A stretch of 64,000 nucleotides of DNA, from the NCBI RefSeq assembly GCF_002709775.1, contig NZ_PAQR01000058.1, positions 1 to 64,000 on the forward strand, read 5' to 3'. How positions within the stretch are numbered: the stretch's first letter is position 1; each line of letters opens with the position of its first letter. A program made the translations under genes and the position numbers. Under the pieces are notes generated by a model. It was not told the DNA's origin. It was given only the letters and a program-made list of their open reading frames with translations, and searched no databases. The DNA is from Thalassospira sp. (GTDB taxonomy: Bacteria; Pseudomonadota; Alphaproteobacteria; Rhodospirillales; Thalassospiraceae). This document shows positions 46,005 through 53,195 of the stretch, in pieces.

Positions 46005-48007
46005 AATGCCTGCCCCAGACTGATATAGAACTGATAGTCGTCATCAACATTGTCACGTTTATCAAGCGGCACGGCGACATCAAATCGCAACGGTCCGACC
46101 GCCGTGTAATAGCGGAAGCCAAGACCAGCCGCCCACAAAAGATCAATGTCTTCCGGCTCGGATCGGGCGTAGACGTTGCCGCCTTCGATGAACGGCACGA
46201 CACCAAAACTTTCAGTGACGCGGGCGCGGAATTCGGCACCGAGCTCAAGCACCGCACGCCCACCCAACGGATCATGTTCGTCATCAAGCGGCCCGACCTT
46301 TTGGTATTCATAGCCACGGATCGATCCGCCACCGCCGGAATAGAACCGCTTGTTCGATGGCAAGCTGCCACGTTCCTCGCCAATGATGGTCCCGGTGCGT
46401 GCACGGGCCGCGAAAACGTAGTCGCCATCATCATCGACCGACAGATATTGCGACCCGGCGAGTGACACCGTGGTGAAATTGGTGTCCTTGTCCGTCAGGC
46501 CCATATAGGGCGAGACATTGACTTCAAACCGGTTGCCTCGGGTCGGGTCAAGCGGGTTGTCGGTATTGTCATGACGCAGGATCCCGCGCAGACCGGCAAG
46601 GTAGAATTCCTCGTTCGGGGAGTCTGATCCGGTCAGGTCGGAATATTCAGCGGTCACACCAAACGTTCCCGTCCAGTTTTCCCAAAGCGGCCGTTCGATA
46701 CCGGCAAAGCTGTCGAGGGTTGAGCCGCTATAGGCGTCGGTATCGTTATTCTTGGCATTGGCCTCGGCAACGAATGACTGACGGCGTTCAAGGAATTGCG
46801 GTTTTTTGAATTCGGCCGACAGGCCCTGCTCAAGGCTTGATACATCAATGCCGAGCCGCAGGCGTTCCCCTGCCCCAAACAGGTTGCGGTGTTCCCAGAA
46901 CGCATTGGCGCCGGGGCCTTCGGCGGTTGAGAAATCGACCCCGCCACCGATGGAGCGCATCTTGCGTTCAACAACATCAATCTCGACCGGGACTTCGCCG
47001 TTTTCCTTGACGGGCCCTGCGACCTTGACGATCACACTGTCAAACAGGTTGGTTTGTGCAAGATCACGACGCGTGGTGCGCACCTGATCGGGGTGATATT
47101 GCTCGCCCGGTTCCCAGCTGTGATAACCCGCGATGAAGTCGGCATCGACATCCTGCGCACCGTTCACCGTGATATCGCCAAACTTGGCCAATGGTCCGGT
47201 ATTTAAGGCGTAATTGATGGTGATCGTCTTTTGCGCAGTATCGGCCATGACGGTGCGTTTTCCAGCTTCGACCAGCGGATATCCCTGTTCGCGCAAAATG
47301 TCGACGGCGTATTGCTCGCCCAGAATGATCGGCTCAGCGGTGGCGCGCTGCCCGATTTCAAGATTGGTCTTTTTAAGCTCTTCGTCTGTCGCGTGACGTT
47401 CCACCACCCGGTCGGGGCGCGTGATCACAAGATTGACCGCAGCGATCAGATAAGGCGTACCGACATCAATGTTATAGGTCAGCACCAACGGGGTGGGCTG
47501 ATCTGATTGTGGCTGATCGGTTGTTGGCTCCAGCACATCATTACCGGACTGACCATCAACCGGATCGGACCCCGGCTCGGAGTTGGCATCGGGCGCGGGG
47601 CTTTCGGTTGCCTTTTCCTTGATATCAAAGGTGATCTGACCGTCATAAAAGCCGTTTGACCGAAGGACCGCCTGAAAACGTTCGACATCATCCTCTGCCC
47701 GGCGCTGCAGGCCTGCGCGCGATGCGGTCGGGCGCGATTGCAGTCTGCGTGCGGTACTCACCGCTTCCAGGGCAGCAATCAGGTTTTCTTCCTGTGGATC
47801 AATGCCGGTGATTTCGACTTCATAGGGGATGGTTGATTGCAGATCATCTTGCACAATCTGGTTGTCAGACCCGCTTCCGAACCCGAGCACACCGTTCAAG
47901 CCTTCGTCTGAAGCGCATGCCGACAGCATCGTTCCCGCCAACAAAAGCGGAACGACTGCAATCCGGCGCCCGGCGAACGGGACTTTTTGTTGGATGCGCT
48001 TATTCAA
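46001..48007 (-). CDS. tamA: TamA-like Omp85 outer-membrane protein with a lipobox
   Basis: A 668-residue BamA/TamA-family protein: signal region 1-31, POTRA domains (about 60-330) and a C-terminal 16-strand-type barrel (about 340-668) ending in an aromatic residue (FYISLGQAF). The signal ends LLLAGTMLSACAS, a good lipobox with cysteine at residue 31, which would make it a lipoprotein; E. coli TamA is not. An acidic, Pro/Ser-rich insert (about 115-150) interrupts the first POTRA region. Translation appears to start at TTG (48007) after AAGGG, as no in-frame ATG precedes the signal peptide. Confidence 0.9.
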   Translation of the reverse strand: MNKRIQQKVPFAGRRIAVVPLLLAGTMLSACASDEGLNGVLGFGSGSDNQIVQDDLQSTIPYEVEITGIDPQEENLIAALEAVSTARRLQSRPTASRAGLQRRAEDDVERFQAVLRSNGFYDGQITFDIKEKATESPAPDANSEPGSDPVDGQSGNDVLEPTTDQPQSDQPTPLVLTYNIDVGTPYLIAAVNLVITRPDRVVERHATDEELKKTNLEIGQRATAEPIILGEQYAVDILREQGYPLVEAGKRTVMADTAQKTITINYALNTGPLAKFGDITVNGAQDVDADFIAGYHSWEPGEQYHPDQVRTTRRDLAQTNLFDSVIVKVAGPVKENGEVPVEIDVVERKMRSIGGGVDFSTAEGPGANAFWEHRNLFGAGERLRLGIDVSSLEQGLSAEFKKPQFLERRQSFVAEANAKNNDTDAYSGSTLDSFAGIERPLWENWTGTFGVTAEYSDLTGSDSPNEEFYLAGLRGILRHDNTDNPLDPTRGNRFEVNVSPYMGLTDKDTNFTTVSLAGSQYLSVDDDGDYVFAARARTGTIIGEERGSLPSNKRFYSGGGGSIRGYEYQKVGPLDDEHDPLGGRAVLELGAEFRARVTESFGVVPFIEGGNVYARSEPEDIDLLWAAGLGFRYYTAVGPLRFDVAVPLDKRDNVDDDYQFYISLGQAF

Positions 48008-48020
48008 ACCATCGTGCCCT

Positions 48021-48098
48021 TGAACGGTTCACTTCCCCAGGATGATACGTGTGAACCTGATTTTTTGATCGTCTTTTCCATATAGGTTCAAACGATCA
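48021..48098. promoter_or_regulatory. Repeated TGAAC/GTTCA sites and interleaved inverted repeats upstream of tamA
   Basis: TGAAC-G-GTTCA (48021-48031) is a perfect palindrome; TGAACCT (48052-48058) and AGGTTCA (48084-48090) repeat the half-site at about 30-bp spacing. TGATCGT (48066-48072) pairs with ACGATCA (48092-48098), interleaved with the previous pair, so the RNA could form a pseudoknot. The rest of the 291-bp gap to the next gene shows nothing clear. Confidence 0.4.
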
Positions 48099-48298
48099 GG
48101 ATCATTAAATGTTTCACAGCAGTCTTTTGAAAACACCATATTTTCATTCGTCGCGCTGGTCGAGTGTGACCTGTGCCATCATCCATGAAAAAATGGCATG
48201 GCTATGAACGATAAATGCGCTTGTGACATTTTATCTTTGAGCGTACCGGGAGTTGAGCGCAACATGTTTGCCACACCCCATCGCACGAGAGCCGCACA

Positions 48299-50269
48299 GT
48301 GACTTCGAGCCAGACCAATACTGTCATTATCCGTGCCGCCGTTCGCGCCGACCTTGATGGGCTTTGCGCCCTTGAGACTGGCAATTTCGAAAGTGACCTG
48401 ATCTCGCGCGCATCTTTCTCGCGCTTCCTGCGTCAGGCCAGTGCGCGCCTCCTTGTTGCGGATGCCGGCGATGCCGATCATCCCGAGATTGTCGGCTATG
48501 GCTTGCTGTTGCTGCGCACCAATACGGTGACGGCGCGGATTTACTCGCTGGCAATAGCAAAAGACTGGCGCGGCAAGGGCTTGGGCACACAACTTCTGGC
48601 CGGGCTTGAAAACCTTGCGATGGATGCGGGATGCACGCGCATGCGCCTTGAAGTGCGCATTTCCAACGAAACCGCGCGCAATCTTTATGAACGTCATGGC
48701 TATGTCCAGATTGCCGAACTTCCGGGCTATTACGAAGATGGTGGTGATGGCATCAGGCTTGAACATGCGCTTTATGACGGCGAAGGCACTGTCACCCCGG
48801 CTGTTGCCACCGGTGCGCCACTGATTCTGGTTGATCGTCTGTCGGATCAACGCTTTGCCGTGTCGGGTGCACGTGTGATGCGGGTCCGCGATTATCTTGC
48901 CCTTGATCACGGGGTGCGCAACCGGCGTGTCATCAACCTTTGCCAGTCCTATGAATATCTGTCGCGCGGGTATTATTGCAGCTTGCTGGCCGCAGCCCGG
49001 GCAGAACGTGTCATTCCCGAGGCCGATGTTCTTTTGGACCTGAACTGGAAACGCTTGCAGAAAACCGCACGTTCCGAGCTCAGCCCGCAAATCATTGAGG
49101 CACTGGAAAAATCGGGCCAGACACCGGAACAGGCCCCGGATCATATCGATGTCTATTTCGGGCGCACGGCAAACAAGAAATTCCGGCAGATCGGCGAACG
49201 CGCCTTTGATCAGTTCCGCTGCCCGATCCTGCGCCTGCATCTTAATCGGCAAGACCGCAAGATCCTGCGCGAAATCGAAGCCCCATCGCTCAATCAGCTT
49301 GATGACAGCAACCTTGCCGAGTTCGAAGCCGCCTTGCGTGCCTATCTACGCGGGCGTGTGCGCAAACAGGGCAACGTCACCCCGCCGACCGCCCTTGTCG
49401 CGATCCTGCATGACCCGGATGAAGTCCTGCCCCCGTCAGACAAGGAGGCGCTGGCCAATTTCGTGCAGGCCGCATCCGACCTTGGGGCGAAGGCCGAGTT
49501 GATTACGGCAAAGGATTTTCATCATCTTTCGGAATTTGATGCCCTTTTGATCCGAGAAACCACGGCCCTTGATCACCATACCTATCGCTTTGCCAAGCGT
49601 GCGGTGAAGGAAGGCATGCCGGTGATTGATGATCCGGACTCGATGCTGCGTTGTACCAACAAAGTCTACTTGGCCGAGTTGCTGCGCACCCACCGTATCC
49701 CGGCCCCAAAAAGTGCGATCTTTGACAAACGCCGCATTGCCGAGATCGGCCAGCAGTTCAGCTTCCCATCGGTTCTGAAGGTGCCGGATGGTTGTTTCTC
49801 GCGCGGGGTGCGCAAGGTGAAATCACCAGAGCACCTTAATGAAGTTGCGACCGAGATGTTCAAAAACTCCGAACTTCTCGTCATTCAGGAATATGTCGAA
49901 ACCACCTTTGACTGGCGTATTGGTGTTCTGGGTGGTGAGGCTATTTTTGCCAGCCGCTATTTCATGGCGCCGGGCCACTGGCAGATCGTCAAACATGAAG
50001 ATGACGGCAAAAGCTTTGAGGAAGGCGGATTTGAAACCTTGCCCGTCGAACAGGCCCCGGCCGACATCGTCGCTACGGCCCTTGCGTCTGCCCGCCTGAT
50101 GGGTGATGGCCTTTATGGTGTGGACGTCAAGGAAACACCGCACGGCCCGATGGTGATCGAGGTGAATGACAACCCGAATATCGATGCCGGTGTCGAAGAC
50201 GTAGTGCTGGGCATGGATCTGTATCGCCGGATCATTGCCCATCTTCTGGGCAAGATCGCGCGGCCATAA
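48299..50269 (+). CDS. GNAT acetyltransferase fused to a RimK-type ATP-grasp ligase
   Basis: A 656-residue fusion. Residues 8-158 are a GNAT domain with the acetyl-CoA loop RGKGLG (91-96). Residues about 178-365 form the region that precedes ATP-grasp in a RimK-like subgroup (LCQSYEYLSRGYYCSLLAAARA). Residues about 365-650 are the ATP-grasp fold: nucleotide lysine K494 (VLKVPDG), hinge IQEYVE (529-534), metal ligands D609 (GVDVKE) and E621/N623 (IEVNDNPN). Such ligases form amide bonds between a carboxylate and an amine via acyl phosphate. The GTG at 48299 follows GAGAG; no better start is in frame. The convergent gene encodes a GNAT-peptidase fusion, likely its partner. Confidence 0.88.
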   Translation: MTSSQTNTVIIRAAVRADLDGLCALETGNFESDLISRASFSRFLRQASARLLVADAGDADHPEIVGYGLLLLRTNTVTARIYSLAIAKDWRGKGLGTQLLAGLENLAMDAGCTRMRLEVRISNETARNLYERHGYVQIAELPGYYEDGGDGIRLEHALYDGEGTVTPAVATGAPLILVDRLSDQRFAVSGARVMRVRDYLALDHGVRNRRVINLCQSYEYLSRGYYCSLLAAARAERVIPEADVLLDLNWKRLQKTARSELSPQIIEALEKSGQTPEQAPDHIDVYFGRTANKKFRQIGERAFDQFRCPILRLHLNRQDRKILREIEAPSLNQLDDSNLAEFEAALRAYLRGRVRKQGNVTPPTALVAILHDPDEVLPPSDKEALANFVQAASDLGAKAELITAKDFHHLSEFDALLIRETTALDHHTYRFAKRAVKEGMPVIDDPDSMLRCTNKVYLAELLRTHRIPAPKSAIFDKRRIAEIGQQFSFPSVLKVPDGCFSRGVRKVKSPEHLNEVATEMFKNSELLVIQEYVETTFDWRIGVLGGEAIFASRYFMAPGHWQIVKHEDDGKSFEEGGFETLPVEQAPADIVATALASARLMGDGLYGVDVKETPHGPMVIEVNDNPNIDAGVEDVVLGMDLYRRIIAHLLGKIARP

Positions 50270-50301
50270 GCGGATTGCAGTGGATTGCAGACACATAAAA
50301 T

Positions 50302-50325
50302 GGCCGGGTTTTACCCGGCCTTTTT
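50302..50325. terminator. Shared terminator of the convergent fusion genes
   Basis: A perfect 8-bp stem (GGCCGGGT / ACCCGGCC) with a three-base loop is followed by TTTTT for the plus-strand gene. The 3' arm contains the stop codon of the minus-strand gene, whose own side has an ATTTT run. Confidence 0.88.
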
Positions 50326-51447
50326 GTCAATGAAGACAGCGGCTTGCAGCTTGTCGCGACCATAGCGCGCCATCAGATCGAATTCCTGGCGCAGGATGGG
50401 GACGGACAGGCAATCGCTTCCGGTAAAGGGCTCATGGTCCTCGCCAATGTCGGGATCGCTGATATAGACGAACCGGTCATCAAAGCCCGACACCACCACC
50501 CAATGCGGGATCTTGTCACCGTAAATGCGGTACTGGCTGATCAGAACCAGTGCCATCTTGCCTTGTTTGGTGCGCTCTTCGATCTCGGCCACACCAAACG
50601 GGCCGGTCGTCACCGGAATACCAGCGTCAGCTGCCTGACGGGCAAAGTCGTAATGCACCAGTTCGACCACTTCACGGTTTTTCGGCTTTCGAACGGTATC
50701 GACAAATAAGGGCCCATCGCGGCTACTGAGGACCTCGGCGTCAAAGCCGCGTTTGTGTGCCGCAAGCGCCAACCCAAGCGGGCCACAGCCACCATGCCCG
50801 GATGTCATAAATATCGTGGTCGCTTCACGCCACAGCGCGATTTCAAGATTGCGATCAAGTTCGATGTCCTGATCCAGCGCATTCATCGCCATCATCAGGG
50901 CCGCCGGACCACAGGTGAATGGCAAGGTCTGGTGATAGAAATGGATCGGCGATGGCAGACGCATGGCGTTTGGCACCAGCACCTTTTCCATGCGAAGGGC
51001 GTTGCTATGATCGGGATAGTAATCGGGATAAAGGGCGAACTCGCGGTAGCCGTTTGCAGCAAACAAGCCGATCGCATGCGGGTTTTTCTGACTGACTTCA
51101 AGACGCAGGATCGGCGCACCGAAATCAAGGCTGAGTTCCTCGGCCTGAGCGATCAGGGCGCGACCAATCCCCTGCCCGCGTTGATCGAGTGACACCGCCA
51201 TGGAATAAAGCCGCGCAAGCGCGACATTGCGGCGAAAGATCACCAGCGCATAGCCGACAACGGTCCCTTCACCGGTTTCGGCCACAGTCAAACGTGCGGT
51301 TTCACTGCCGATAAAGCGTTTGAAGGCACGCCGGTTCAGTCGGTCAACGTCAAAGGACCGGTTTTCAATTTCGCACAGCGCATCAAGATCATCGCTCTTG
51401 GCCGGTCGAAATCGGATGTCTGGGAGTTGGTCTGCGTTTGACGTCAT
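50311..51447 (-). CDS. GNAT acetyltransferase fused to a C39-like cysteine peptidase
   Basis: A 378-residue fusion. Residues 11-158 are a GNAT domain (acetyl-CoA loop RGQGIG, 90-95), and residues about 165-375 are a papain-like C39-type peptidase: Q173 and C179 in HQTLPFTCGPAALMMAMNAL, H315 in IPHWVVVSGFD and D331 in YISDPDIGE. Unlike bacteriocin exporters, there is no ABC or membrane part, so it should act in the cytoplasm. I choose the ATG at 51447, just before the GNAT domain; upstream in-frame starts (51471, 51495, TTG 51528) add unmatched sequence. Its GNAT domain resembles that of the convergent ATP-grasp protein along its length. Confidence 0.87.
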   Translation of the reverse strand: MTSNADQLPDIRFRPAKSDDLDALCEIENRSFDVDRLNRRAFKRFIGSETARLTVAETGEGTVVGYALVIFRRNVALARLYSMAVSLDQRGQGIGRALIAQAEELSLDFGAPILRLEVSQKNPHAIGLFAANGYREFALYPDYYPDHSNALRMEKVLVPNAMRLPSPIHFYHQTLPFTCGPAALMMAMNALDQDIELDRNLEIALWREATTIFMTSGHGGCGPLGLALAAHKRGFDAEVLSSRDGPLFVDTVRKPKNREVVELVHYDFARQAADAGIPVTTGPFGVAEIEERTKQGKMALVLISQYRIYGDKIPHWVVVSGFDDRFVYISDPDIGEDHEPFTGSDCLSVPILRQEFDLMARYGRDKLQAAVFIDKKAG

Positions 51448-51593
51448 ACCGGTATCACTTGATAAAACCATGCCAAAGACAGCATGCGCGGACATATCGT
51501 CATGAAACGCACCAAAGGTATAGTGCAATTTATGCGATGCTCACTGCGTTTTTTGCACAGCAACGCACCGCATAACCTGCACATTCAAACGGC

Positions 51594-52007
51594 TTAGCCG
51601 CGTGCTGCAATCCGTGGGGCGAGCGGGGCCATATCATAGCCGGCATCAGCCGCAGCCTTGATGATGTCACCTGCCGGCATTTGCCCGGCATTGGCCAGCG
51701 ACCAAAGAATGGTGCAACGCGTGCCACTGCGGCAATAGGCGAAGACGGGCTTCTCGGCGGCTGCCAGATTGGCGCCAAAGGCGTCTGCATCCGCATCGGA
51801 AACATTGCCACTCGCAACCGGCTGGAAAATCGCCTTCATACCGGCGGCTTCGGCCTTGGCAGCAATTTCAGAAAAAGAAGGCTGTCCCGGATCTTCGCCG
51901 TCCGGACGATTGCAGATGATGGTTTTGAACCCGGCCGCAGCGATTTGGTCAATCGCCTCAAGCGGCATTTGCGGGGATACAGTCAGTTCATCACTCAGGC
52001 GTTTCAT
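51594..52007 (-). CDS. TIGR01244-type sulfurtransferase/phosphatase-like protein
   Basis: A 137-residue protein of the DUF442/Blh-like family, related to tyrosine phosphatases and rhodaneses. The start TVSPQMPLEAIDQIAAAGFKTIICNRPDGEDPGQPSF is diagnostic, and the active loop is YCRSGTRC with C92. The loop has rhodanese length (C-R-S-G-x-R), not the CX5R of phosphatases, so sulfur transfer is more likely. I start at the ATG at 52007. In other bacteria such proteins occur with sulfide-detoxification genes; here a small YgaP-like membrane protein follows on the same strand. Confidence 0.82.
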   Translation of the reverse strand: MKRLSDELTVSPQMPLEAIDQIAAAGFKTIICNRPDGEDPGQPSFSEIAAKAEAAGMKAIFQPVASGNVSDADADAFGANLAAAEKPVFAYCRSGTRCTILWSLANAGQMPAGDIIKAAADAGYDMAPLAPRIAARG

Positions 52008-52166
52008 TTTTATATTCCGTTCGTCGTTGCTGGTCGCCGCGCCCGATTGGTCAGGCATCAACAGCACATATACGCAGCATACCGTACAAAGGTACGGATG
52101 CCAGCATAACGTTCACACAACAACAGATCGAACGGAATATTCCGGTCTCAAACGCCGTTTATCGCG

Positions 52167-52712: not shown

Positions 52713-53195
52713 GTGATCACCATCCGACCTTTTCAAGATAGCGACGCCCCTGCCCTGATTGCGGTTTTCCATCGCGCAGTTCACGAACTGGCAACGCGTG
52801 CCTATGGCCCGGAACAGATTGCCGTCTGGTCCGAACTCTGCCCGACGCCAGAACAACTGTGCGAAATCATGAATGATGGCCGCGTCACTTTTGTTGCGAC
52901 CAACGAAAATGACGAACCGGTCGGCTTTACCGATGTTGAAGCCGATGGCCATATCCGGTTTCTGTATGCCAGCCCGGACATTGCGGGCACCGGCCAGGTT
53001 CAGACACTTTATGACGCGCTCGAAACCAAGGCCATGGAACTTGGCATCGGCAAGCTTTACTGCGAGGCCAGCGAGCTGGCGAAGTCGTTTATGCTGAAAC
53101 AGGGTTTTTCCGTCGTCGAACGGCGTGACTTCGAACTGCGCGGTGTACCGATCCATAACTATGCCGTTGAAAAACGTTTGCGGCCCCGGACCTGA
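52713..53195 (+). CDS. GNAT acetyltransferase
   Basis: A 160-residue GNAT protein with ITIRPFQDSDAPALIAVFHRAVHELATRAYGPEQIAVW at the start and a C-terminal EASELAKSFMLKQGFSVVERRDFELRGVPIHNYAVEK, as in the YafP-like group. The acetyl-CoA loop is atypical (IAGTGQVQTLYDALE). It starts at GTG with AGGA about ten bases upstream. It stands alone, with a strong terminator after it. The substrate is unknown. Confidence 0.85.
   Translation: MITIRPFQDSDAPALIAVFHRAVHELATRAYGPEQIAVWSELCPTPEQLCEIMNDGRVTFVATNENDEPVGFTDVEADGHIRFLYASPDIAGTGQVQTLYDALETKAMELGIGKLYCEASELAKSFMLKQGFSVVERRDFELRGVPIHNYAVEKRLRPRT

Follow-up and report, generated by a model that had tools for sequence, protein, structure and literature searches.

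A conserved pair of GNAT and RLAN ATP-grasp ligase with an accessory C39-like domain, a putative amide-bond module in Thalassospira and other Pseudomonadota

The window analyzed here, a stretch of 64,000 nucleotides from Thalassospira sp. (contig NZ_PAQR01000058.1, positions 1 to 64,000), contains two adjacent convergent genes, 41 bases apart, that code for fusion proteins with a GNAT acetyltransferase domain each. In one of them the GNAT is joined to an RLAN domain and a RimK-type ATP-grasp ligase, in the other to a DUF3335 (C39-like) domain (Table 1). Across genomes, the core of this system is the GNAT plus the RLAN ligase and the C39-like domain, mostly GNAT-fused, is accessory, because a GNAT is near constant at the ligase while the presence of the C39 domain changes 13 times along the ligase tree. 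What we infer, with a probability of about one half, is a conserved non-ribosomal amide-bond module in which ligase and GNAT act on the same compound, and with it the reactions, the common substrate and the order of the steps. The ligase, of the RimK/LysX type and provided with RLAN, would turn a carboxylate into an acyl phosphate and then join it to an amine. The GNAT, related to N-terminal alpha-acetyltransferases, would cap the shared compound by acylation of its free alpha-amine. As with N-acetylglutaminylglutamine synthetase, the most likely product would be a short peptide with an N-acyl group or else a small molecule extended by a peptide. Where present, the C39-like domain may trim, transfer or recycle that compound. 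In the Thalassospira form of this putative module, the genes face each other and the ligase comes with a GNAT fused to it. Since an N-alpha-acetyltransferase-like GNAT is found in nearly every locus, the simplest reading seems to be that one compound undergoes both amide formation and N-acylation. The parts were known and the class of system had been predicted earlier in print; new here are the linkage numbers, the split into core and accessory, and the double-GNAT form of Thalassospira. This split narrows the question of the product.

An earlier note on this DNA had described two adjacent convergent fusion genes with a GNAT in each, and both the open reading frames and the Pfam domains are indeed found there. 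Of the limits that it gave (48299-51447), the ligase start holds but the peptidase end does not, since the ATG at 51447 lies inside the gene, whose longest frame begins at TTG 51528. All the ligase domains score above their cut-offs (PF00583, 65.2 bits; PF14401 RLAN, 127.4, cut-off 25; PF08443 RimK, 34.4, cut-off 21) and lie in a single protein in the order GNAT, RLAN and ATP-grasp, although RLAN had gone unnamed in that note. The ligase site, read there as intact from K494, D609 and E621, is so: these residues and N623, which we take to be catalytic, are invariant in an alignment of 66 rows (the window protein and 65 relatives after dereplication at 80%), in which the RLAN residues N213, Y225 and R234 are also conserved. 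The RLAN profile had no relative among solved structures at E values up to 5. The peptidase gene is equally clear, with 51.7 bits for PF00583 and 276.6 for PF11814 (DUF3335, cut-off 25). Its predicted triad, C179/H315/D331 from the ATG and 206/342/358 from the TTG, is likewise intact, with Cys and His conserved in 100% and Asp in 92% of 49 rows (the window plus 48 relatives), and all three invariant across 22 aligned GNAT-C39 proteins. A Gln six residues N-terminal of the Cys is found in 100% of the 49 rows. The genome has one copy each of RLAN and DUF3335.

Table 1. Features of the ligase and GNAT-DUF3335 genes, with positions in the window.
Feature	Position	Strand	Basis or remark
Ligase gene, GNAT-RLAN-ATP-grasp fusion, 656 residues, GTG start at 48299	48299..50269 (stop included)	+	Open reading frame and Pfam
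Ligase GNAT domain (PF00583), RimI/NatA-like	48425..48703	+	
RLAN domain (PF14401)	48887..49330	+	No solved profile relative at E up to 5
RimK-type ATP-grasp domain (PF08443); K494, D609, E621 and N623 invariant	49658..50239	+	66 rows
Inverted repeat of 8 pairs, GC-rich, flanked by a T-rich tail on either strand	50302..50320		Overlaps end of peptidase gene
GNAT-DUF3335 gene, 405 residues from TTG 51528 (378 from ATG 51447)	50311..51528	-	Open reading frame and Pfam
DUF3335 / C39-like papain-fold domain (PF11814); Q200, C206, H342 and D358 in TTG numbering	50329..50943	-	
GNAT domain of peptidase gene (PF00583)	51046..51384	-	

The association of the two genes was followed through 398 Pseudomonadota genomes (phylum sample) and 289 genomes of the class (class sample). 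In the phylum sample, RLAN is present in 72 genomes, DUF3335 in 58 and both in 57, where 10.5 would be expected (Fisher p 1e-53, a test that ignores shared ancestry and repeated genera). The two genes lie within 5 kb of each other in 55 of these 57; the others are G293, with the genes 2.1 Mb apart, and G461, with the genes on separate contigs. Rare co-occurrence, which would have spoken against the pairing proposed in the earlier note, is therefore not what is seen. Among the linked pairs, GNAT-C39 precedes the ligase in tandem in 28 and follows it in tandem in 5; another 18 are divergent and 4, all from Thalassospira, convergent. A linkage that survives four arrangements speaks more strongly for joint function than bare co-occurrence does. 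The class sample gave a similar picture, with RLAN in 33 genomes, DUF3335 in 26 and both in 21 (3.0 expected), 20 of them within 5 kb (the exception is G180). The window lies in a genome of the Thalassospira kind, with L005 as best relative (98% identity), and the convergent arrangement is kept in all 22 Thalassospira-type loci. The GNAT-ligase fusion is visible in 21 of them, the remaining one (L026) being cut by the contig end.

We fetched 129 ligase genes with their surroundings (22 Thalassospira-type, 57 from other contig-database loci and 50 selected from the two genome samples), and 127 have a system-type GNAT, either fused or within 3 kb. One of the two exceptions (L067) is 186 bp from a contig end, and the other (L117) has its GNAT-C39 on a different contig (L118). 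This constant company of ligase and acetyltransferase, kept up across four gene orders and different states of fusion, probably means a shared substrate. DUF3335 behaves differently, being absent from 12 of the 33 class-sample and 15 of the 72 phylum-sample RLAN genomes, that is, 25 distinct genomes since G028 and G183 occur in both samples. In all 25, a stand-alone GNAT is found no more than 1.5 kb from the ligase. Acetylation had been proposed as a third step; it looks instead like a core step. In a phylogeny of 65 ligases, the presence or absence of C39 (read, for contig-database loci, from the locus alone and not from the whole genome) changes 13 times, at least 9 of them forced by well-supported branches. 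The fusion of GNAT and ligase was seen in Thalassospira and in Salaquimonas (L039, on a long branch), which makes two changes on the best tree, although one origin is also compatible. The Thalassospira ligase (L008) groups with those of Marivibrio, Pacificispira and two metagenome-assembled genomes (support 94/85), and these relatives have the tandem unfused form.

The two GNAT domains of the window are clearly akin, with 38-39% identity over 157-160 residues and 114-117 bits. Within the same genome (30 of the 41 GNAT places found in it were compared, plus 6 overlapping loci), the runner-up in both BLAST comparisons was RimI, with 47.0 and 37.4 bits, so that the two domains are closer to each other, as the earlier note claimed, than to any other GNAT compared from this genome. 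Its further idea of one duplicated recognition module on both enzymes stands as regards this kinship but fails as a general rule. Outside Thalassospira, the loci have mostly one GNAT, C39-fused or alone, beside an unfused ligase, and a GNAT on each enzyme is a Thalassospira arrangement. G607 and G293 have a two-GNAT state without ligase fusion (a stand-alone GNAT and a separate GNAT-C39). The best tree, with a bootstrap that had not converged, does not make the two Thalassospira GNATs sisters: those of the ligases group with a Saccharospirillum GNAT-C39 and the stand-alone GNAT of G293 (94/87), away from the Thalassospira C39 GNATs. Forcing all Thalassospira GNATs into a single clade (after removal of six outgroup and six long-branch rows) lowered the log-likelihood by 24.4, with a p value of 0.163 in the approximately unbiased test. 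A recent duplication inside Thalassospira is thus disfavored by the best tree and not rejected by the test.

RimI and NatA kinds acetylate protein N-termini. Both window GNATs resemble RimI (TIGR01575) in the LEV and YY motifs, which are common to the system GNATs and the genome's own RimI, but score under its cut-off of 86.4 (78.8 and 68.1 bits, versus 91.2 for the RimI of the genome). Among solved structures, the best relatives are of the NatA/Ard1 and RimI kinds for the peptidase GNAT and of the archaeal Ard1 and human NAA30 kinds for the ligase GNAT. The 98 dereplicated system GNATs, pooled from the ligase-fused, C39-fused and stand-alone ones, keep a Glu and a Ser (98/98 each), an Arg (97/98) and a Tyr (96/98) at places where the RimI of the genome differs, which suggests one acceptor for all of them. 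A more elaborate scheme can be drawn from this, in which GNATs of the same signature on the ligase and on a cysteine hydrolase would serve a cycle of three activities on one acceptor: the amide would be made by the ligase and removed by the hydrolase, acetylation would license or protect it, and in Thalassospira one GNAT would have been fixed on each enzyme. We consider this scheme doubtful. Constant linkage and fusion to both partners would also fit a GNAT that regulates its own partners through acetylation of lysines or N-termini in the ligase or the peptidase, with a metabolic reaction that needs the ligase alone. The resemblance to N-terminal alpha-acetyltransferases and the same residues kept in three contexts, the stand-alone one included, make such self-modification very improbable.

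LysX, ArgX and RimK are ligases that attach an amino acid to a carboxyl group. They provide the nearest solved folds for the predicted ligase model (mean predicted local distance difference test score 87.1, predicted template modelling score 0.55), with D-Ala-D-Ala ligases also among the top ranks. In the Foldseek top 50 every match was an ATP-grasp protein, and no RLAN fold neighbor was among them. The ligase has the ATP-grasp fold and the catalytic residues of the RimK/LysX/ArgX enzymes but falls below the RimK family cut-off (TIGR00768 rimK_fam, 76.5 versus 143.4 bits) and carries RLAN and GNAT in addition. One ArgX entry among the fold matches was solved with the carrier protein LysW, and one RimK entry with RpsF. 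These folds, together with GNATs that are closest to RimI/NatA kinds, could indicate reversible protein tagging, in which the ligase, like RimK, would extend a protein, ribosomal or not, by amino acids at its C-terminus, the C39-like domain would take them off again in the way RimB reverses RimK, and the GNAT would acetylate the protein or its tag. RimK/RimB is described as a write-and-erase precedent in PMC12239564. The three stretches beside the pair that were searched for small genes also fit, having no small precursor gene conserved outside Thalassospira. However, the C39 absences listed above are not what is expected of a needed eraser, the RimK score is low, and no target protein was recognized nearby. 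We therefore regard tagging as possible but unlikely.

Among solved structures, weak profile matches link the C39-like domain both to BtrH N-terminal-like proteins (E 0.0068) and to a C39 leader peptidase (E 0.0025), so that hydrolysis is only a candidate activity. The domain could instead be an acyl- or peptidyl-transferase, comparable to BtrH or to phytochelatin synthase (Pfam match with E 0.046, under the cut-off), whose reaction runs the same way as that of the ligase, with no cutting back. The conserved papain-type Cys, His, Asp and Gln agree with this, and fusion to a GNAT in one chain would suit the transfer of a capped compound. Still, the profile search of solved structures gave no match below E 0.001 and no close relative, and the Foldseek top 50 for the peptidase protein were acetyltransferases only, with no C39 fold neighbor among them, so that a transferase of this kind appears improbable. 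Some departures from the usual gene were observed. In L077 (1873-2996), a locus that is normal in other respects, the GNAT-C39 gene is broken into two frames, which may reflect assembly error or decay, and L100 (5728-7722) codes for a protein of 665 residues with two DUF3335 stretches and without a GNAT match. Extra DUF3335 proteins of 353-402 residues, about the length of GNAT-C39, are found at L128 (13189-14394 and 4136-5194) and L129 (5748-6839), each on a different contig from the ligase. Their N-terminal half has no GNAT match above the Pfam cut-off, one giving a weak score of 17.8 bits.

As for known systems, the best parallel to a module that pairs N-acetylation with amide-forming chemistry and has a peptidase nearby may be Ngg (TIGR03103), whose architecture we take to be GNAT plus ATP-grasp. 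It is described as a single enzyme for N-acetylation and peptide bond formation with a peptidase gene in its operon (PMC8070244). The window differs in having RLAN and a C39-like domain, while the Ngg operon has AsnO and a glutamyl aminopeptidase; the best TIGR03103 match in the genome is located elsewhere and reaches 27.2 bits for a cut-off of 569. We considered and rejected a replacement of the N-acetylglutaminylglutamine pathway, RLAN being present in 8 of the 17 class-sample genomes with TIGR03103 versus 1.9 expected. Iyer 2009 is reported to treat gene neighborhoods of ATP-grasp, GNAT and peptidase in general. DUF3335 (PF11814) proteins are often GNAT-fused, and these GNATs are perhaps peptide ligases or acetylases, as stated in PMC10318531, citing Iyer 2009. 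The window peptidase gene has the same fusion, but the ligase-GNAT fusion is unmentioned and no function is assigned in that passage. RloABC of Pseudomonas also brings ATP-grasp and peptidase together in one operon, although with a retropepsin and an inactive transglutaminase instead of C39 and GNAT (PMC12239564). Neither an assigned function nor a named product was found in the accessible literature on DUF3335/RLAN and on RimK-like ligases with a peptidase or acetyltransferase.

Several points weigh against the proposed amide-bond module. A RimI-like GNAT could equally indicate a protein substrate. Besides GNAT and C39, the recurring neighbor families that we examined are lineage-bound or general, and the coexistence of Ngg and RLAN systems means that the RLAN module is not a simple substitute for the Ngg pathway. 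The profile that identified system GNATs was built from matches in these same loci, which makes its scores partly circular; in the tree, the system GNATs are not all resolved as one group against six outgroup rows from the same genome, and the stand-alone GNATs of L090, L093, L097, L098, L029 and L121 are on long branches. PA1345, an RLAN ligase of P. aeruginosa, has no annotated GNAT within 4 kb in the one record considered. Lastly, 5 of the 26 class-sample genomes with DUF3335 have no RLAN match; their DUF3335 frames, of 222-253 residues, are too short for a GNAT.

The surroundings of the pair were also inspected. The inverted repeat between the two genes is a possible shared bidirectional terminator; a terminator consensus scan of the region gave 8 sites, about twice the shuffled mean of 4.0 (standard deviation 2.4), and the fold z-score was -2.64. 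A third, separate GNAT gene (52713-53195, plus strand; best match PF13673) lies near the pair, and a gene with a PF04273 phosphatase-like domain (51594-52067, minus strand) adjoins the GNAT-C39 gene. The end of the latter was recovered in the 8 Thalassospira loci searched, at variable distance. Upstream of the ligase, an intergenic frame of 32 codons (48109-48207, plus strand) has similar counterparts in 3 of 8 Thalassospira loci and may mark merely a conserved promoter region. A ribosomal peptide precursor beside the pair was rejected: 20 small open reading frames from the stretches 47950-48420, 50200-50340 and 51380-51720 were compared with 19 loci, the matches were confined to Thalassospira loci, and several were fragments of known genes.

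Other candidate partners fared no better. The M20 family is found near 12 loci (L030-L032, L034, L036, L041, L043, L045, L049, L051, L053 and L133), 10 of which, all but L034 and L133, are named Chromatiaceae, so that synteny is the probable cause; the sole member classified (L053) is an acetylornithine deacetylase. GGDEF proteins gave 11 rows including the query, but in the remaining 10 the similarity is limited to the region of the GGDEF domain and the genes are at scattered places, and LysR regulators, present in 8 loci, were not accepted as functional partners either. A PADLOC search for anti-phage systems had no match at E 0.01, and the RLAN protein of the P. aeruginosa locus (L183), used as query in place of the window proteins, had none among phage records.

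PA1345, which is the RLAN gene of that locus (L183, 3899-5572), lies beside an SDR gene and a gene of the Orn/Lys/Arg decarboxylase type. A CpxR-like site was assigned to PA1345 by motif only, not by DNA affinity purification sequencing (DAP-Seq), in Table 1 of PMC12802237, and the gene is not among the selected regulated genes in the part of Table 2 considered. This direct repeat begins 84 bases before the annotated RLAN start on L183. A similar site is found upstream of three second-copy RLAN genes of one family (f182; L124, L125 and L126), which are the only ones among 266 genes tested (0.68 expected) and are close relatives. These sites are hints of a control of the RLAN ligase by envelope stress, in the PA1345 lineage only.

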